Source: Pseudomonadota bacterium (GTDB lineage Bacteria > Pseudomonadota > Alphaproteobacteria > UBA8366). From it: a DNA stretch of 64,000 nt. Position numbers and translations under genes: made by a program. The DNA lies in assembly GCA_036339585.1 (NCBI GenBank), contig JAYZAS010000023.1:1-64000 (forward strand), given 5' to 3'. This document shows positions 44,638 to 61,024 of the stretch, piece after piece (within the stretch, counting starts at the first letter, position 1; each line of letters starts with the position of its first letter). The notes below the pieces were generated by a model. It was not told where the DNA came from. It saw only the letters and a program-made list of their open reading frames with translations, and did no database searches.

Positions 44638-44880
44638 GAATGATCCTCCAATTAGAAACTCGACTCGTATACGTATCCTCTAAATTCTATCCCATAGCAA
44701 GATAGCGCAAGGTCAGTCGATAATATTGCCACCATAAATTAAGAATTTTTTCTTGCTTTGTGACTGTATCGATGATGACTTTGCAGATCATCGAATAACG
44801 GCTATTTTTATATTGAAATTTTTTCCAACAAAAAGTTGCTAGAGCTATATGAATGTCACAAACGCGATACGGGTAATTTT

Positions 44881-45810
44881 ATGAATGTAACTCATCCATC
44901 AGACGCAGCAATTCAACAAAAATTAAAGTTTGCATGGCACACCTTCCAAATGTTGTGCTCAGTTGTCGTTATTACTACCACTTGCAGCGTTTCGAGCGCC
45001 GTTGGTTTTAATCTTGAAAATTCTTCCAATCTTCCATGGGCCACGGCATCCAAGTCTAACCATGTATTCCCCTCTGAGACGCAATCTTTTAAATTAGCGC
45101 AATCCACTTCATCAGAAAATGTTTTGAGAGCGCTTGATTTGTTTCTTGGCCTAATACAACGAAAGAGTAATCTGAATCCTCTGCCCAGTAGCAGGTGCAG
45201 CAATACGCTTAACACAGAGGGATTGTTGCAACGTTCATGGATTAATGAAGCCAAGCAATTTTTACGCGGTAGGCAAAATTTATTTTACTATTTTAACAAA
45301 TCGACGAATAGATTTGTTTTCAGACATGAAGGCCAAAATTACGCACTTAATCCTCGACGCATAACCGAAGCGGATGCTAGAGATGCACAAAAACTCCTAT
45401 ATAGATTAGATCAGCTAATTAGTTTAGATTTTCGACGAACATATTATAAAAGTAACGCCGATTTATTGGTGTACCTAATTTGCGTGCCAGATGCGCATTA
45501 TGGAGAAGTTATCGACGACTCTAGCGGTACTAAGCAGATTATGTTTTTAAACGAATGCGCAGAGGGAGCCGGCAAACATAATCGGATGGACTACAAATTT
45601 CTTCACGAAATGGGCCATGTGTTGGGTTTGGAACATCCATTTGATGGTGATGACGGAGATTGTCTTTTCACAACTGCAAAGTTTTCTTCGGATAGCGCCC
45701 ATTTAGGACAGACCCTGATGGCCTACAGAGAGCCTCCTTTCGGAACGATTCCGGGCTTTTATACTTCATTAGACATTAGAGCTTTAATCGAAGCTTGGGG
45801 GCCTGAATAG
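44881..45810 (+). CDS. Secreted metzincin zinc metalloprotease (M10-like)
   Basis: About 309 residues. Zinc motif HEMGHVLGLEHP (HExxHxxGxxH) is followed about 35 residues later by TLMAYRE, a plausible Met-turn, so this is a metzincin of the matrixin/serralysin kind. The N-terminus from ATG 44881 has a hydrophobic stretch (MLCSVVVITTTCSVSSAVG) acting as signal or anchor; the 15 codons upstream to TTG 44836 are less likely. RTX repeats and the haemopexin domain are missing, so secretion by a type I system is not indicated. Substrate unknown. Confidence 0.8.
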   Translation: MNVTHPSDAAIQQKLKFAWHTFQMLCSVVVITTTCSVSSAVGFNLENSSNLPWATASKSNHVFPSETQSFKLAQSTSSENVLRALDLFLGLIQRKSNLNPLPSSRCSNTLNTEGLLQRSWINEAKQFLRGRQNLFYYFNKSTNRFVFRHEGQNYALNPRRITEADARDAQKLLYRLDQLISLDFRRTYYKSNADLLVYLICVPDAHYGEVIDDSSGTKQIMFLNECAEGAGKHNRMDYKFLHEMGHVLGLEHPFDGDDGDCLFTTAKFSSDSAHLGQTLMAYREPPFGTIPGFYTSLDIRALIEAWGPE

Positions 45811-50260: not shown

Positions 50261-50689
50261 ATGTCCCCATACCTTACCTTTACTATTGGCTCCGCAATGA
50301 ACTGCGATGTTCATTTAAATCATTCTAGTGTTTCTGACATTCATGCTGAGCTTGTTGTGTCATCTAGTGGAAAACTATTCTTGACAGATAGAGCGAGCGA
50401 GGCGGGCAGTTTCAAAAAAGAAAAGCAAAAGTGGGTCAACTTCAAGCAAACTTACGTAGGTAAAAATACCGAAATTCGGTTTGGTAAATACAAAACCAAA
50501 GGTCAATCAGTGTTAGCCATGATTGCGCCCAATGGGATATGTGCTAAATTCGAGGAATACGAAAATTCTATTCTTACTTCTTTATCGCCTAGCAACAAAA
50601 ATCACTACGACCCAAAAAATAACCTTCCCACCGGTCAAGTGAGGCGCTCTATTCATACCGGAGAAATTATTTCAGCGAAGGAGAAATAA
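50261..50689 (+). CDS. Small FHA-domain protein (stator-like operon, gene 1)
   Basis: 142 residues. A forkhead-associated domain spans about 5-85: LTFTIGSAMNCDVHLN, the SxxH motif SDIH (25-28), AELVVSSSGKLFLTD and a GSF turn in place of the usual NG. The Arg of the canonical IGR is Ser here, so phosphothreonine binding by the classical mode is uncertain. The rest is polar. No signal or TM segment is seen. It overlaps the next gene (TAATG), so translation is coupled. Likely a cytoplasmic regulator of the channel encoded next. No Ser/Thr kinase is nearby. Confidence 0.75.
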   Translation: MSPYLTFTIGSAMNCDVHLNHSSVSDIHAELVVSSSGKLFLTDRASEAGSFKKEKQKWVNFKQTYVGKNTEIRFGKYKTKGQSVLAMIAPNGICAKFEEYENSILTSLSPSNKNHYDPKNNLPTGQVRRSIHTGEIISAKEK

Positions 50690-51459
50690 TGCGAAAGCTA
50701 GATCTTGAGAGAGATAGCGAAACCCGTATCATCGGGGCATTAATAGGCGTTTTTTTCTCGATTGCATTGCTATTGGTATTTCATTTTTTGCTCGAAGGGA
50801 TTGCAGAACGTCTGCTAATTGACCGAAATTTCGCGACCTACCCTTTTACGGTTCAAAATGTCATGTGGGTTGTTTTTGCAATAGGCTTTTCGGAGCTTTG
50901 GGTGCGGCATACTGTCAGCAATCGAGAAATGAGTGTCCTGCGACGGCAGTTCCTACCAGAGGACCGGGAAACAGTGCTTAGATCAGAAGATTTAGGCCAC
51001 TACTATCAGCTCTCCATCCGCGATGAGGCTACCCAAGACTGCTTCCTTACACGTCTCATTGCAAGAGTGATACTTCAGTTTCAATCAAGTCGCTCGGTTG
51101 ACCAATCGAATGCATTATTAAATTCTAGCATTGAGCTATACCACCACGAGGTCGATCTCCGTTATAATATGTTGAGGTATATAGTATGGCTCATTCCAAC
51201 ATTGGGCTTTTTAGGTACTGTTATTGGCATTGCCATCGCGCTAGAGGGAATTGCTAATATGCGGCCAGATGATGCAACGCTATTACGAGTTTTAACGACC
51301 AAACTTGGTACCGCTTTTTTTACCACATTACTTGCATTAGCAATGTCAGGAATACTCGTATTCCTGATGCATATTGTACAAGGCCGTGAGGAACGGGCTT
51401 TAAACCTCTCTGGTCAATATTGTCTCGATAACCTTATAAATCGTCTATACGAACGGTAA
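50689..51459 (+). CDS. MotA/TolQ/ExbB-family proton channel subunit (stator-like operon, gene 2)
   Basis: 256 residues with four predicted TM helices: about 13-35, 55-75, 162-187 and 207-230, and a cytoplasmic loop between 2 and 3. The channel signature is WLIPTLGFLGTVIGIAIALEGI (162-187), followed by ATLLRVLTTKLGTAFFTTLLALAMSG; Pro170 is the usual proline at the ion pathway. Such proteins form pentamers that conduct protons with a B subunit of the MotB/ExbD kind. Here the next gene supplies a candidate B subunit. exbD, tolR, motB, tolA and tonB are absent. The only N-terminal feature is a charged start (RKLDLERDSETR). Confidence 0.82.
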   Translation: MRKLDLERDSETRIIGALIGVFFSIALLLVFHFLLEGIAERLLIDRNFATYPFTVQNVMWVVFAIGFSELWVRHTVSNREMSVLRRQFLPEDRETVLRSEDLGHYYQLSIRDEATQDCFLTRLIARVILQFQSSRSVDQSNALLNSSIELYHHEVDLRYNMLRYIVWLIPTLGFLGTVIGIAIALEGIANMRPDDATLLRVLTTKLGTAFFTTLLALAMSGILVFLMHIVQGREERALNLSGQYCLDNLINRLYER

Positions 51460-51485
51460 TCCATAATTGGCAACAGGAAATTCTG

Positions 51486-52439
51486 ATGAAACGCCGAAGC
51501 CGCGAAGTCGTCATTTTCAGTATGTCCGCACTAGACTTGTTTGCATCTGCCCTTGGAGCATTCATTTTGGTGACAATTGTCTTGCTTCCATATTATCTAA
51601 AGCATGACGATGTTGTGCGAGACAACAACAAAATGCGCGAAAAAATTGTCGAATTAGAACAAACCGTCTCGACATCAGTAAGCAAGACAAAACTCGAAGA
51701 GGCACAAAAACAAATTGACCAACTTCAAGAAAAAATACAAACGAGTGATAATCTAAGTGAAAGGCTGCGTGCTGCAGAAGACCGAGCAAGGAAAGCGGAG
51801 AAAAAAATTGCAGCTGCCCAATCCTCAGCGAACAAAGTAAAGGCTGATCTAAATGAAGCTCGAAAGGAAGCCAAACGTCGAGTAAAGTTTGCACTTCTTG
51901 GTCTAGCTACCAACGCCCAAAGTTTCGTAGTTGTCATGGATATGTCTGGCAGTATGAAAAAATTTAGAAATATCACACTTCAAACAATGCAGAAGATACT
52001 CGAGCCCATGAGCGAAAAGGAAAAGCTTGGAATCATTGGTTTTCATGCGCCGGGCACTAAAGCATTTTATACCATTCAGTTGCCGCGTTGGCCGAACCAA
52101 GGGACAGCGCCAATGTTAAACCAAAATAAGGGAATTGCTATGAATTTTGTCCGTAATATGATGGGGCGAGTTGATGGCGGTACTCCAACAATGGATGGAT
52201 TAATGGCAGCACTGCAATATAATGTTGATGCGATTATTCTAATGACCGATGGACAACCAACGGTGCCAAATCGTAATTGGCGACAGGTCATTCAAAATAT
52301 TACCCGACGTAATGGTGGGCGAAAAGAAATTCACACCGTAGCCATAGGTAATTTTTATGAGCGCCCCACTTTTGTCACCTTTTTAAGCCAATTAGCTATG
52401 GCTAATAGAGGTAAATTTACCGGAGTTGCCCTGCCATGA
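51486..52439 (+). CDS. Membrane-anchored coiled-coil vWA protein, candidate stator B subunit (gene 3)
   Basis: 317 residues. A single TM helix (about 9-37) contains an acidic residue, Asp17, in FSMSALDLFASALGAFILV, the position and setting of the essential Asp in MotB and ExbD. Residues 45-135 are heptad-rich (coiled coil). From about 145 a von Willebrand A domain follows with a full MIDAS: Asp152-x-Ser154-x-Ser156 (MDMSGSM), Thr in GGTPT and Asp255 in LMTDGQP. The vWA part would lie outside the inner membrane, where MotB carries a peptidoglycan-binding domain. Shine-Dalgarno CAGGAAA precedes ATG 51486. Confidence 0.8.
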   Translation: MKRRSREVVIFSMSALDLFASALGAFILVTIVLLPYYLKHDDVVRDNNKMREKIVELEQTVSTSVSKTKLEEAQKQIDQLQEKIQTSDNLSERLRAAEDRARKAEKKIAAAQSSANKVKADLNEARKEAKRRVKFALLGLATNAQSFVVVMDMSGSMKKFRNITLQTMQKILEPMSEKEKLGIIGFHAPGTKAFYTIQLPRWPNQGTAPMLNQNKGIAMNFVRNMMGRVDGGTPTMDGLMAALQYNVDAIILMTDGQPTVPNRNWRQVIQNITRRNGGRKEIHTVAIGNFYERPTFVTFLSQLAMANRGKFTGVALP

Positions 52440-52473
52440 CGTTTCTTTCACTATTACGCCAAGAGAGAGCACC

Positions 52474-53787
52474 ATGAGTGATCATTTTTTTTTCGAAATC
52501 AAAACCAGTGCTCTTGAAAATAATGGTGTTGTTATTGGCTCTGATAAGGAGCTTTGCGATTATGTTGCAAATGCCCCCAAAATTTCGCGTCGTCATGCAC
52601 GTCTAACAGTGAGTGGAGCTGAGTTTTTAATCGAAGATTTGAATAGTGAATCTGCCATAGTTGTTAATGGACGACAACTTAAACCCTTTTGCCCAACGCA
52701 AATTGCCCCTCAGACAGTTGTAAAGATTGGTGAAACAGAAATAGAATTAAAAATTATTCCCGACAAAGATTCGCTTGACTTGTCTTTGACAGCAGCTGGG
52801 GCACCACTACGACATTCGCAGAAGTCGAGGTTGGGTGTTCTGGCAATGGTGATCCTTTTTGGAGTGCTTTCGATCGGGGTCGTTGCCGGAACGGGGTTTG
52901 GTTATCAGTACTATCAAGCATGGAAGACTGAGGAAGGAATTTGGCTGAGAGCACTTAATTCAAACCAAATCAGTGATTTTACATCATATATCAGCGCTTA
53001 TCCGGAAGGTCGGTATCGAGAGGATGCCATTCGAGCAATAGAGCGGGTTCAACTTGAGAAGAAGAAAGCAGAACTTGCAGCAGATAATGCAACATTCGAA
53101 TTGTCTAAAGAGGTCAACACTATATTTGCATTTAAAACCTACATTCGCTTGTATCCAAAGGGCACTCATATAGAGCCGGCAAAGTCTGCACTCGCACGTT
53201 TGCAAATCGAAAAAACAAGCGAAGAAAAAGCGGCCGCTGAGAGAGCTGCGTGGGCTATAGCAAGCAAAGCTAATACCCGTGCCTCTTATGAAAAGTACCT
53301 AAAAGACTTTCCCGGAGGCCCTAATTCCGATAATGCCAAGACAGCCATTAAGTCAATCACAGAAGCAGAGGCCGAACGTAAAAGTCGTTTAGCAAAAGCC
53401 GAAGCAAAACGACAAAAAATGCTACAAATTAAAAGCGCCTTCGAAAACGCCCGCAAAGAAGATACTGTTGCTGCCTATCGGATGTTTTTGAGGCAATATC
53501 CCGGCAGTGGCAAAGAGGCAGATTGCCGTAATTTTATAGGGTTCTTATATGCAAACGGGAAAAGCGTTGCCAAAGACGCCGCCGAAGGAATTAGATGGTT
53601 TCAAGAAGCCGCTGAATTAGGACATACCGAGGCCATGATGAACCTTGCATATCATTATCGCTATGGTCTTGGTGTTCAAAAAAATACGAGCACTGCAGCA
53701 CAGTGGTATAAAAAGGCTGACGCAGCAAAACACCCCTACGCTAAGCTACACCTCAATGATTTAAAAAAAGAAATGGGAACTCCATAA
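52474..53787 (+). CDS. FHA-TM-repeat-Sel1 protein (stator-like operon, gene 4)
   Basis: 437 residues from ATG 52474 (AAGAGAGAG upstream; the open frame before it overlaps gene 3). Order: FHA domain 17-95 (VVIGSDKELCD, ISRRHARL, VVNGRQL; Arg of IGR missing as in gene 1), TM helix 118-142, then about four repeats of a YxxYPxG helical unit (DFTSYISAYPEGRYREDA; FKTYIRLYPKGTH; YEKYLKDFPGGP; YRMFLRQYPGSG) and two Sel1-like repeats (IRWFQEAAELGHTEAMMNLA). The FHA would be cytoplasmic and the repeats outside, the reverse face to the stator's cytosolic ring. It links cytosolic signals to an envelope scaffold. Confidence 0.78.
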   Translation: MSDHFFFEIKTSALENNGVVIGSDKELCDYVANAPKISRRHARLTVSGAEFLIEDLNSESAIVVNGRQLKPFCPTQIAPQTVVKIGETEIELKIIPDKDSLDLSLTAAGAPLRHSQKSRLGVLAMVILFGVLSIGVVAGTGFGYQYYQAWKTEEGIWLRALNSNQISDFTSYISAYPEGRYREDAIRAIERVQLEKKKAELAADNATFELSKEVNTIFAFKTYIRLYPKGTHIEPAKSALARLQIEKTSEEKAAAERAAWAIASKANTRASYEKYLKDFPGGPNSDNAKTAIKSITEAEAERKSRLAKAEAKRQKMLQIKSAFENARKEDTVAAYRMFLRQYPGSGKEADCRNFIGFLYANGKSVAKDAAEGIRWFQEAAELGHTEAMMNLAYHYRYGLGVQKNTSTAAQWYKKADAAKHPYAKLHLNDLKKEMGTP

Positions 53788-58604: not shown

Positions 58605-60665
58605 TCAGTAACCTTTGATCCGCTTGCAAAACCAAGTTCGCTCCTCCCCTTTACCCCATTTAGCAATTTTTAAAACAGCGCGCTTTCCGCCCTTTGGTAT
58701 TGGAACTAATTCAGTAGATATACTAGTCATATGCAAACTATCCCCGTTGCCGGAAATATCGCTCAAGTTAATGAGTGCTACAAACGTTCGGGACAGGTGT
58801 TTTGTTGTTTTTGATTGAGCTCCAAATGCAACCGCCATTCTGCGTTTTTTAAACTCCAGGCTGTGAGGGTAGTAAACTCCTACACCGAGTCTACTACTTG
58901 CCTCATCGCCTTTACTATGCGGGGAGCGGGTACCTTTTCGCATTGTAACTCTCCGAGGGCCGGCTTTAGCCTCTCTTTGGAATGCCGCTATACGCAACAA
59001 AACTTCATTTTGGGTATTTTGCTCACGATTGTTACAGCGATACTCCCCATCAAAAAAACCAAAACTCTGGCTGCTTGCTGCCTTACGAATAACCGGTGAA
59101 AGTGTGTAATAACCCTTTTTCATATATATCGGGGCATTCCCACCAGGAAGAATGCATTTGTTATCATCTAAGGTACCCGTAATAAACTCACCTGACACTA
59201 TCGCGGCACACAGATGCTCATAAGAACCTCGCATTTTATTGTGACTAGATTTTTTATCGGAAATAGCATCAGACTTATGCCAACGCCCTGTATATTTGGA
59301 ACGAAAAACAAGTACCTCGTACCTTTTTTCTCTAGTAACCTTGGAATTTATAGCCAAAAGGCAAGCGCGAGCCTTGGGTATTGCATTGCCGTTTTGAAAC
59401 ACCACGTCACGCAGTCTTTTCATGGTGCCAAACACGTAGCCGGTTTGTTCATAGAAAACCCTACAAACGTAGTGTGACTTTTTTATTTTGCTTAAAAAAG
59501 CATCTGGCGGCACATCGTCTTCAGAGGCCACCCATTTAATAATCGGTAAAAATTGGGGTGGGAAAAAACCAGATGAGCCGCCCTTCCAACGTAGTACATC
59601 AAATTTAACCCTCACAGGAACTGGACTTTCTTGCTGAGCGGTATAGGGGATAGTACATACATCACGTTCAAGACGCCCAACTACGTAACGGCCACGTTCA
59701 ACCTCAACTCTGCAAACAAACGTCTTTTCTAAGCCCGAATGGGAGGCAACAACCATTGTTTTGGATAACGCTTGTGGGTTATGAGGCTGCCACGAAGCCT
59801 CATAACCTCTATTAAAAGCGAGAATTTGATATTGCTCATGTCGGGTACGGACCCCACCGACACCGATGTTACAGCGCGGATCTACGGTGTCACTTGATAA
59901 TGTTCCAGTAAACCAACCCCAATTTGGGTGTTTAACTCTGCAGATATAAACTGGCCCACTAGAACCACTTTCCTTCCTCATCCTGTAAGCACCTGAGGGG
60001 ATTTTGTTTTTTGCTTTTATCCATTTAATTGGCGCCTCATTTAACGTTGCAAAGGATAGATTCTTTCTTTTGGTGATTGACTCCTTTTTGCTCAGGCTAA
60101 ATTCGGTTGCTTTATTCCGATAAATACTACTCAAAGAGCTGTCGCGTTTTCGAATTAGTAACACTTCATTTTTACTGCTCGACCTAGTAGTGCGTACACC
60201 ACGAGCACTAAATTCGCAGACACGAGAGTCGTCTATCAACTTGCCAAAAAACCACCGGCCGTGGGCTCGAGTGCGACAAATAGAAAACTTGGCGGGCGTT
60301 TTTACAAATACCCCATAATCCATCAGGTTTGATTTGTTAGATTTGTGCCACGATGCGGAAAAATCACCTGAAATACTCAAAATTCGATAATGTTTTGTCC
60401 ATTTGGAGGTGTTATTTTTGCTATTGAAATAAGAACAAACATAGTTTTTTCCCGCAATCAAAGTTCCCGGATTGCCGCGTTTTGCGCAGATCGGCAATTG
60501 TTTTTTTCCAGGCATTAGGTAAGCACCGTCAGGGATGCTTTGGTTTGCTTTTAACCAACGGACTGGGTTTGCCAACAGAAAACTGGAAGGAAGAAAAATT
60601 GTCCCAAATATCGTTCCGGCAAGCACTAAGGGGACGAGATTTTGTATCGTTGAGCGATCTATCAT
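58605..60665 (-). CDS. Secreted protein with multiple DM9-like (DUF3421) repeats
   Basis: About 686 residues from ATG 60665, which gives a signal peptide (LVPLVLAGTIFGTIFLPSSF) ending at LLA; the frame opens at 60707. At least three clear units begin W-x-K/A-x(3-6)-P-x-G/D-A and continue with a C-R-x-x motif and a V/L-G-x-L turn: RWLKANQSIPDGAYLM, KWIKAKNKIPSGAYRM with VYICRVKHPNWGWFTGTL, and KWVASEDDVPPDAFLS; each is followed by a second, weaker unit beginning W-H/Q-x-S/H. This is the DM9 pattern, known in eukaryotic lectins that bind mannose. The C-terminal 150 residues are different and unassigned. Confidence 0.7.
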   Translation of the reverse strand: MIDRSTIQNLVPLVLAGTIFGTIFLPSSFLLANPVRWLKANQSIPDGAYLMPGKKQLPICAKRGNPGTLIAGKNYVCSYFNSKNNTSKWTKHYRILSISGDFSASWHKSNKSNLMDYGVFVKTPAKFSICRTRAHGRWFFGKLIDDSRVCEFSARGVRTTRSSSKNEVLLIRKRDSSLSSIYRNKATEFSLSKKESITKRKNLSFATLNEAPIKWIKAKNKIPSGAYRMRKESGSSGPVYICRVKHPNWGWFTGTLSSDTVDPRCNIGVGGVRTRHEQYQILAFNRGYEASWQPHNPQALSKTMVVASHSGLEKTFVCRVEVERGRYVVGRLERDVCTIPYTAQQESPVPVRVKFDVLRWKGGSSGFFPPQFLPIIKWVASEDDVPPDAFLSKIKKSHYVCRVFYEQTGYVFGTMKRLRDVVFQNGNAIPKARACLLAINSKVTREKRYEVLVFRSKYTGRWHKSDAISDKKSSHNKMRGSYEHLCAAIVSGEFITGTLDDNKCILPGGNAPIYMKKGYYTLSPVIRKAASSQSFGFFDGEYRCNNREQNTQNEVLLRIAAFQREAKAGPRRVTMRKGTRSPHSKGDEASSRLGVGVYYPHSLEFKKRRMAVAFGAQSKTTKHLSRTFVALINLSDISGNGDSLHMTSISTELVPIPKGGKRAVLKIAKWGKGEERTWFCKRIKGY

Positions 60666-61024
60666 GCATTTATCCAAAATTACGAAATATTGAATACCAC
60701 TGGACAACCCTGTATTAAAAACACTGGCACGGAATAATTGTAGCCACGATTATTGCTGATTACTAATAACTAAAACAACGTGCGGGCCTAATGCCTTTTC
60801 AAATTGTTCCTGTTTGCCTGACTCAATATTTTTTTCTGAGTTTCATATTACCACTATCTGCACCGAACTCATTTTTGATTAATCGAATTCCTAAAAGCCC
60901 TACTGAATATTTTGCTCAGACTTTCGATGGGATGGGACTATTCGACCCAAATTACTGTCTAATAAATATCAGGCCACGGGTCAGAGATCAAAAAAGTATA
61001 GCGGGATAATGCAAAACCGCCTTG
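60666..61024. other. Intergenic region before the DM9-like gene
   Basis: 359 bp. A 72-codon frame at 60791-61009 on the plus strand starts with a hydrophobic stretch (PVCLTQYFFLSFILPL) but has no Shine-Dalgarno and no recognisable continuation; I do not support it as a gene. The promoter of the DM9-like gene should be here. Confidence 0.4.

Follow-up and report, generated by a model that had tools for sequence, protein, structure and literature searches.

A four-gene alphaproteobacterial operon for a probable small, FHA-linked motor of the predicted TPH-vWA type

A run of four plus-strand genes in the genome of a marine alphaproteobacterium appears to encode a small, FHA-linked form of the TPH-vWA motors, a reading to which we give a probability of roughly 0.6. 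In Williams-Jones et al. (2025, PMC12204202), these are predicted 5:2 motors composed of a TolQ-like channel and a vWA protein with an aspartate in its transmembrane (TM) helix. The observed basis for our reading is gene content, conservation, the lack of a linked kinase or phosphatase, residue changes and purifying selection. The open reading frames (ORFs) follow one another at positions 50261–53787 of the window (the whole stretch of 64,000 nucleotides that was analysed, contig JAYZAS010000023.1; Table 1). The start of the channel gene overlaps the stop of the preceding FHA gene in a TAATG (50689), and both the adjacency and the overlap had been described in an earlier account made from the DNA alone (the sequence-only reading).

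Table 1 Features of the operon, in positions of the window
Feature	Position	Strand	Basis
Gene 1, FHA protein, 142 aa	50261..50689	+	Pfam FHA 1.7e-8; hydropathy; position upstream of channel
Gene 1, C-terminal tail motif R-S-I-H-T-G-E	50645..50665	+	Alignment of upstream FHA proteins
Gene 2, MotA/TolQ/ExbB-like channel subunit, 256 aa	50689..51459	+	Pfam MotA_ExbB 1.3e-12; hydropathy
Gene 2, Thr177, GTV motif	51217..51219	+	Invariant, 8-row channel alignment
Gene 2, T213, second candidate pore position	51325-51327	+	Invariant, 8-row channel alignment
Gene 3, B-type subunit, 317 aa	51486..52439	+	Pfam VWA_3 2.3e-10; hydropathy; alignments
Gene 3, Asp17 codon in SALDLFASALGAF, candidate proton-carrying residue	51534..51536	+	Alignments
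Gene 3, MIDAS motif DMSGS, residues 152-156	51939..51953	+	Translation, alignments
Gene 4, FHA-TM-Sel1 protein, 437 aa from ATG	52474..53787	+	Pfam Sel1 3.7e-15, FHA 2.1e-13; hydropathy

The same four genes occur in the same order in three relatives (G010, G001 and G002), the kind of recurrence that the sequence-only reading had proposed to look for. It runs counter to the first outcome named there as a refutation, that the genes would occur together nowhere else. In the window, Pfam identifies TauD and GMC oxidoreductase among the genes next to the set. All three relatives have a GMC-oxidoreductase-type neighbour on one flank, judged in G002 from ORF length and place only; the opposite flank holds an alcohol-dehydrogenase-type neighbour in G010 and G001 and falls almost beyond the contig in G002. 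Inspection of the ORF list by eye found no TonB, TolA, flagellar or Zorya C/D/E gene adjoining the set, in agreement with the earlier account, and no tolR, exbD or motB gene beside the motor genes in the window. The four genes are under purifying selection. All four frames are open in the four genomes, which represent two genera, and dN/dS values against G010 are 0.055 for the channel, 0.11 for the vWA protein, 0.21 for the first FHA protein and 0.25 for the FHA-Sel1 protein, the channel gene being the most constrained. Over seven computable gene pairs the values range from 0.03 to 0.31, with the vWA pair of G001 and G002 (an ambiguous base) and the window/G001 comparison (no usable dS) left out.

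Gene 2 is probably a channel subunit with four TM helices, judging from hydropathy profiles that put three segments over threshold in the window protein and a fourth in its relatives. By analogy with the threonine ring reported in PMC12204202, Thr177 and T213 are candidates for a role in the pore. Solved structures searched with the channel profile gave MotA and PomA chains only, at E values of 0.5 to 0.94. By eye, another channel gene of the genome, at C12, is followed by two MotB-like genes; we regard it as flagellar.

Gene 3 combines an N-terminal TM helix bearing an aspartate, a coiled coil that is predicted to be periplasmic and a vWA domain. Hydropathy places its hydrophobic segment at residues 7–40 and a marginal one at residues 133–151, where the vWA domain begins. 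Asp17 is invariant in a five-row alignment and aligns with the aspartate of both branches in a second alignment; the coiled coil drifts, and the TM motif and its aspartate stay conserved. The MIDAS is intact, as the sequence-only reading had stated, with the DxSxS, T and D residues all present (DMSGS ... GGTPT ... TDG). A vWA model from a two-row alignment was too poor for a fold search (mean pLDDT of 39.6). At the gene level, the TM aspartate and the conserved co-occurrence across genomes bear out the earlier pairing of this protein, as B subunit, with the channel.

The likeness to the TPH-vWA motors, as PMC12204202 describes them, extends to a TolQ-like gene adjoining a membrane-tethered vWA gene with a proton-binding aspartate in the TM helix, to the lack of a TolR, ExbD or MotB gene and to conserved channel threonines, here T177 and T213. 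The systems in that paper predominantly, though not universally, have heterologous vWA pairs, whereas the window, G010, G001 and G002 have one vWA gene, and the window operon differs further in its two FHA proteins. The words kinase, phosphatase, forkhead and Sel1 are absent from its text, and the single occurrence of 'FHA' is in the protein name FhaC. Because the channel/TM-Asp-vWA pair is in print there as a predicted 5:2 motor, the motor core is not new, and the earlier remark that no described system with exactly this content was known does not hold for the core. For the FHA-linked TolQ-vWA branch, a search of open-licence PMC papers brought up no description.

The comparison covered a class sample of 385 genomes and a family sample of 11. 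The same-genus genome G009, 84% complete, gave no match to gene 3. In the class sample, the channel was found in 17 genomes, the TM-Asp/vWA-type protein in 17 and both in 16; the window's channel branch accounts for 8 genomes and a second branch for 9. G381 has the channel only at the cut-offs used, yet two vWA-type genes lie directly downstream. The vWA-type gene of G153, an 81%-complete genome with no channel match, has an integrase-like upstream neighbour by eye. In G049, G129, G164 and a Rhizobium plasmid, the TM-Asp subunit lacks a recognised vWA domain, and G164 has the channel and this subunit without FHA, kinase or phosphatase genes. A plasmid locus of Rhizobium leguminosarum BT01 is among the relatives that carry the full set.

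Within the window's branch, 11 of 12 readable loci have an FHA gene immediately upstream of the channel gene. Of the nine loci outside the window's sub-clade, seven also contain a kinase and/or PP2C gene; for an eighth (G106), such a gene is found on a second contig, adjoining the vWA gene. The sub-clade itself comprises the window, G010, G001 and G002, each with one vWA gene and two FHA genes, and none of its four loci has a linked kinase or phosphatase. No kinase or PP2C gene was found in 12 second-branch loci; the FHA, kinase and PP2C profiles were built from the window's branch, and divergent second-branch members could escape them. Since Hanks kinase and PP2C genes are added in the fuller relatives, threonine phosphorylation is most likely the switch of the motor there. 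Threonine phosphorylation in type VI secretion runs through the PpkA–PppA–Fha pathway, which likewise combines a kinase, a PP2C phosphatase and an FHA protein; in the fuller relatives the set lies at a proton-motive-force (PMF) motor locus, and no kinase or phosphatase gene stands beside the window motor.

The channel tree groups the four small loci together (99/100) and separates the two branches at 95/100; we rely on these two divisions only. Thirteen of the 26 inner branches are open, and four reference channels from the window's own genome sit on very long branches, two on each side; we therefore do not claim monophyly of either branch. The small four-gene set may have arisen by loss of the kinase and phosphatase; the tree gives its clade no firm point of attachment within the window's branch and is compatible with loss as well as with later gain.

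The FHA domains of the window also differ from those of the fuller loci. Only two FHA matches occur in the 2.79-Mb genome (E up to 0.001), both in this operon. In both, the arginine of the GR motif, which we take to be a phosphate contact along with the serine of SxxH, is replaced by serine (IGS), and the SxxH serine is retained. At least one of these contact residues is missing from all eight FHA domains of the four small loci as against 2 of 20 elsewhere. The small loci come from two sister genera, and the difference may reflect no more than a handful of separate events. The FHA-Sel1 proteins of G001 and G002 retain the contact arginine, and, among loci with a kinase, G129 has one FHA domain without the arginine and G121 one without the serine. 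The altered contact residues in both domains, together with the lack of kinase and phosphatase genes beside the window motor, suggest that its FHA domains are probably phosphate-independent docking parts, connectors that no longer read phosphothreonine. The sequence-only reading had given the FHA domains control of the motor; in the phosphothreonine sense this is doubtful for the window genome, since both lack the contact arginine and every kinase match in it scores below the family cut-off.

Gene 1 has no hydrophobic segment, and its R-x-x-x-T-G tail is found in all 11 aligned upstream FHA homologues. Gene 4 could instead begin further upstream, at a TTG at 52426. In its product, hydropathy places a TM helix at residues 116–145, between the FHA domain and a TPR/Sel1 solenoid that is predicted to be periplasmic. 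The model of this protein is poor for residues 1–145 and reaches block-mean pLDDT values of 69–94 from about residue 151 on. Fold searches returned Sel1/TPR proteins in general, Foldseek listing BamD and AlgK among others, with no single closest family that would point to a function. A weak resemblance to CpoB/YbgF, under the cut-off in both cases (5.6e-8 and 4.2e-5), recalls Tol-Pal, which also pairs a PMF channel with a TM-Asp partner; the window set, however, has no TolA, TolB or Pal beside it by eye, its output domain is a vWA domain and its TPR protein carries a TM helix, an FHA domain and Sel1 repeats.

These features are compatible with the following mechanism, for which we infer both the target of the motor and any topology beyond hydropathy. 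A pentamer of the TolQ-like gene 2 product would surround a dimer of the vWA protein in a 5:2 stoichiometry, and Asp17 in the TM helix of gene 3 would carry protons past the threonine ring of the channel. The resulting rotation or strain would move the coiled coil and the vWA domain, which may grip a metal-dependent partner in the periplasm or outer membrane. The FHA protein of gene 1, with its conserved RxxxTG tail, would contact the channel from the cytoplasmic side. Gene 4 would cross the membrane, its periplasmic TPR/Sel1 arm probably holding the target or positioning the motor.

An alternative is that the window FHA domains still read phosphothreonine and that a kinase encoded elsewhere switches the motor in trans. 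Such phosphorylation is conceivable because the genome encodes a kinase-like protein (G000:C10:122331, next to purA by eye), along with a single PP2C match; the retained SxxH serine and the threonine conserved in all 11 FHA1 tails are also in keeping with it. However, the kinase match scores 29.6 bits, below the family cut-off, and G003 and G004, two genomes that gave no gene 3 match, have similarly weak ones. The PP2C has a homologue in 10 of the 11 genomes of the family sample, whether or not they carry the operon, as against 5 of 11 for gene 3, so it is not linked to the operon, and we rejected it as a dedicated phosphatase acting in trans. With the GR arginine changed to serine in both domains, we consider a switch in trans unlikely.

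By content, the nearest working analogue is gliding in Myxococcus, and the operon could be read as a gliding or adhesion surface machine in which an adhesin complex is pulled along by the motor and coupled to it through the bitopic FHA protein and its TPR arm. This would give the motor a target and does not deny the motor. In PMC3169522, the Agl-Glt machinery of Myxococcus xanthus unites a motor of the MotA/TolQ/ExbB type, AglR together with AglQ and AglS, with a bitopic protein, GltG, that has a cytosolic FHA domain, and with several periplasmic TPR proteins, a combination that makes the idea of an FHA protein joined to such a motor less new. A title cited in PMC12204202 adds a vWA surface adhesin, CglB, to that machinery, and the GltG model gives a match of 3.6e-9 to the FHA portion of L106:1981-3648. 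Nevertheless, the GltG matches cover the FHA part only and fall far under the 650-bit cut-off, and neither an ExbD-type AglQ/AglS gene nor an outer-membrane Glt gene was seen by eye beside the set. As PMC3169522 presents it, the Agl-Glt motor works with ExbD/TolR-type partners (AglQ and AglS) rather than a vWA protein, its motor and FHA protein are encoded in separate clusters, its table lists no linked kinase or PP2C and GltG ends in a TonB-type domain where gene 4 ends in TPR/Sel1. The window genome also has a flagellar MotAB-like locus by eye, and a gliding role seems to us distinctly unlikely.

It is improbable that the TolQ/vWA pair acts as a proton-linked sensor or channel instead of producing force, with gene 4 and the FHA proteins reporting the state of the envelope to the cytoplasm. 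Signalling genes do surround the motor in other loci, and proteins in which one strong hydrophobic segment joins an FHA domain to a trypsin-like, PG-binding or vWA domain are recurrent. The channel, however, retains the threonines and arrangement of force-producing relatives and is under the strongest constraint of the four genes.

A defence role, which the sequence-only reading had entertained, found no support. Zorya systems consist of ZorA, with a long cytoplasmic tail, and ZorB, with a peptidoglycan-binding domain, plus ZorC/D or ZorE. The window operon resembles them in its MotA-like channel and single-TM Asp partner, and in a PADLOC scan gene 2 weakly matched ZorA models, at 3.3e-6 in the best case, while gene 3 weakly matched a ZorB model at 0.0016. 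These are local TM or coiled-coil matches, those to ZorA spanning about 70–90 positions of models 461–683 positions long; the channel has 256 residues and no ZorA tail, gene 3 ends in a vWA rather than a peptidoglycan-binding domain, and ZorC/D/E were not seen beside the set by eye. The flanks are metabolic, the place is conserved in two genera and a viral contig scan gave three short channel matches only, all of which makes it very improbable that the operon is a Zorya-like system whose motor detects incoming phage and sets off an effector. That the set is a functionless, decaying remnant of a fuller system, as the missing kinase, phosphatase and second vWA gene and the altered FHA residues might suggest, is scarcely credible and is largely refuted by the dN/dS values, alongside the open frames and the intact MIDAS and TM aspartate.

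The small FHA-linked motor may belong to a wider group. Tentatively, and at somewhat less than even odds, we suggest an undescribed branch of envelope proton motors run by threonine phosphorylation, in which an RxxxTG-tailed FHA protein binds to the channel, a linked kinase and PP2C determine its state, and the TM-Asp subunit has an exchangeable periplasmic end, a vWA domain or another fold; the window lineage would have shed the switch and kept its FHA domains as fixed connectors. No 5:2 motor is known to us whose kinase, phosphatase and FHA genes share a single locus. Such a branch would widen the set of genes associated with the TPH-vWA motors, for which PMC12204202 describes the function as unknown or leaves it open. 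It would also provide a system in which the control of a proton motor by phosphorylation can be tested, together with a comparison in which one lineage keeps the motor without the switch.

Open reading frames, Pfam matches and hydropathy agree on the gene content proposed in the sequence-only reading, namely a small FHA protein, a MotA/TolQ/ExbB channel protein, an anchored coiled-coil vWA protein and an FHA–TM–Sel1 protein, with TAATG as the overlap of the first two genes. Gene 1 has no hydrophobic segment by hydropathy; gene 2 has three over threshold, with a fourth over threshold in relatives; gene 3 has one at the N terminus and a marginal one where the vWA domain begins; and gene 4 has a single segment at residues 116–145. 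Predicted structure and fold searches give gene 4 a TPR/Sel1 solenoid, and the model of gene 3 is of poor quality; the structure models contribute little on mechanism. Elsewhere in the window, 58605–60707 (minus strand) encodes a protein of 700 residues that contains a DM9 repeat (Pfam, 3.7e-14), a domain best known from animals, and repeat-like stretches by eye, and 44836–45810 (plus strand) encodes a putative secreted metallopeptidase (HExxH by eye; Reprolysin_5, 2.8e-5, below cut-off).

Genes of the four-gene operon
Gene	Product	Position	Strand	Evidence
1	FHA protein	50261-50689	+	Pfam
2	MotA/TolQ/ExbB channel subunit	50689-51459	+	Pfam
3	TM-anchored coiled-coil vWA protein	51486-52439	+	Pfam
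4	FHA-TM-TPR/Sel1 protein	52474-53787	+	Pfam

The channel and vWA genes match the description of a predicted motor type in PMC12204202, where sequence and AF3 models place membrane-tethered vWA proteins with a transmembrane Asp beside tolQ-like genes, without tolR, and the vWA proteins are proposed to rotate within the pentamer. The four-gene set is a variant of a recently predicted motor type. The words kinase, phosphatase, forkhead and Sel1 are absent from the text of PMC12204202, and we found no report of an FHA-linked TolQ–vWA branch in the literature searched.

The window genome is a 2.79-Mb assembly in 25 contigs. The sole named relative found by searching genome contigs is an uncultured Rhodospirillaceae MAG (gene 3 95% identical). 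The same four genes occur in comparison genomes G010, from the window's genus, and G001 and G002, from another genus of the family; all three keep a GMC-type neighbour, and G010 and G001 an alcohol-dehydrogenase-type one. Gene 3 is present in 5 of 11 family genomes (E 0.001). Among 385 genomes of the class, the TM-Asp/vWA-type protein (E up to 1e-8) and the channel (E up to 1e-15) each occur in 17, and together in 16. Outside this overlap, the channel of G381 is followed downstream by two vWA-type genes, and the incomplete genome of G153 yields no channel match. The G153 vWA-type gene (L054:5846-7599, TM-Asp), ~0.8 kb from a contig end, may stand alone, because the upstream reading frame resembles an integrase by eye.

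Channel matches split into branch A, which includes the window (8/385 genomes, 309–424 bits), and branch B (9/385, 79–90 bits). Across 398 genomes sampled from the phylum, E 1e-25 was passed by the window genome and by just two loci, both of branch-B strength (103 and 106 bits). A channel tree, in which half of the inner branches are open and reference channels from the window's own genome are too long to place, supports the split at 95/100 and unites the window, G010, G001 and G002 loci (hereafter the small loci) at 99/100. The window genome carries a further MotA-like gene (G000:C1:221812, locus L006; 387 residues, 20.8 bits, below the family cut-off), followed by a single-TM partner-like reading frame and by eye unlike the genome's other channel loci. 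Comparison of the window with G010 gives dN/dS values of 0.055 (channel), 0.11 (vWA), 0.21 (upstream FHA gene) and 0.25 (FHA–Sel1), and of 0.06 and 0.10 for two flanking genes; between G001 and G002 the values are 0.03, 0.31 and 0.20 for channel, upstream FHA and FHA–Sel1. Selection maintains the four-gene set and constrains the channel most tightly.

Alignment shows that the segment S-x-S-x-x-D-x-x-x-x-A-x-G-x-F of the TM-Asp subunit holds across branch A, and that Asp and Gly are conserved in branch B. DxSxS is intact in the single vWA genes of the small loci, G225 and G106, and the second gene of the vWA pairs in G007 and G165 has a broken MIDAS. The output end appears exchangeable, since G049, G129, G164 and a Rhizobium leguminosarum plasmid have no recognised vWA domain behind the TM helix. 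Among TM-Asp subunits with no Pfam vWA match at the periplasmic end (L055:3094-4643 and L070:10811-11548), both G129 proteins carry D-V/I-D-L-H-V-V-D-P there, and the Rhizobium protein has a less strict version of this motif.

We scanned the neighbours of 13 branch-A loci with a channel gene (the small loci, G007, G225, G106, G165, G129, G121, G049, G164 and the Rhizobium plasmid) and 12 branch-B loci, using profiles built from branch-A proteins. The immediate upstream neighbour of the channel is an FHA gene in 11 of 12 readable branch-A loci, G164 being the exception; the G129 locus begins at the channel gene, which leaves its upstream side unreadable. A kinase and/or PP2C gene shares the locus in seven of the nine branch-A loci other than the small ones, with no profile match to either at G164 or at any of the small loci. 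G106 has two PP2C genes on a second contig, where they surround its vWA gene. Pfam confirmed, in example loci, a kinase with an FGE domain, a kinase with a beta helix, and PP2C. Proteins that fuse an FHA domain to a second domain recur beside branch A. The partner is trypsin-like, PG-binding or vWA (in Rhizobium, a vWA match below cut-off), and in each protein a strong hydrophobic segment separates the two, a parallel to the window's FHA–TM–Sel1 gene. The branch-A-derived profiles matched FHA, kinase or PP2C in 0/12 branch-B loci; the one scanned with Pfam holds a PEGA–FGE gene alongside two or three genes that lack clear domains. In G007, L023:2313-5798, upstream of the channel cluster, encodes a 1,161-residue protein with, by eye, a very high content of S, G, Q and T and no Pfam match.

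FHA domains contact phosphate through two residues, the GR-motif Arg and the SxxH Ser. We aligned 28 branch-A FHA domains, all found with an FHA profile built for this analysis. All eight domains of the small loci lack at least one contact residue: Arg is missing from the upstream FHA of every small locus, and Ser as well from that of G001 and G002, and FHA–Sel1 lacks Arg in the window and G010 and Ser in G001 and G002. These losses represent few independent events, because the small loci fall into two sister pairs. At the other branch-A loci, 2 of 20 domains lack one contact residue (Ser in the G121 upstream FHA, Arg in G129), and both loci have a kinase. A C-terminal R-x-x-x-T-G tail is present in 11/11 upstream FHA proteins, those of the small loci included; the tail Thr may be phosphorylated in the fuller systems.

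Genome-wide, the window assembly has two FHA matches, both inside the operon, one PP2C match with a homologue in 10 of 11 family genomes, and one kinase-like match (29.6 bits, below the Pfam cut-off), whose gene adjoins purA by eye. Relatives show comparably weak kinase matches as well; among these are G003 and G004, both without gene 3, and G003 has strong kinases too. G010 has one kinase match below cut-off, and those of G001 and G002 are slightly above it (35–40 bits); matches reach 92–149 bits in G007, G225, G106, G165, G121, G129 and G049, and 68.5 in G164.

Most likely, genes 2 and 3 form a proton-driven 5:2 motor with vWA as its output, which the gene 4 TPR/Sel1 arm would place or load, as gene 1 would from the cytoplasmic side. 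Threonine phosphorylation probably gates the motor in the fuller relatives and probably does not in the window lineage. The earlier proposal of an FHA-controlled, proton-driven envelope machine is supported in part. The gliding machinery of Myxococcus xanthus, which combines the TolQR-like motor AglRQS with GltG, a bitopic FHA protein, and with TPR proteins (PMC3169522), is a precedent for the partnership of an FHA protein and a motor of this type, although it differs in its ExbD-type partners and separate clusters. By content, the nearest analogy suggests that the motor may serve surface attachment or a gliding-like role.
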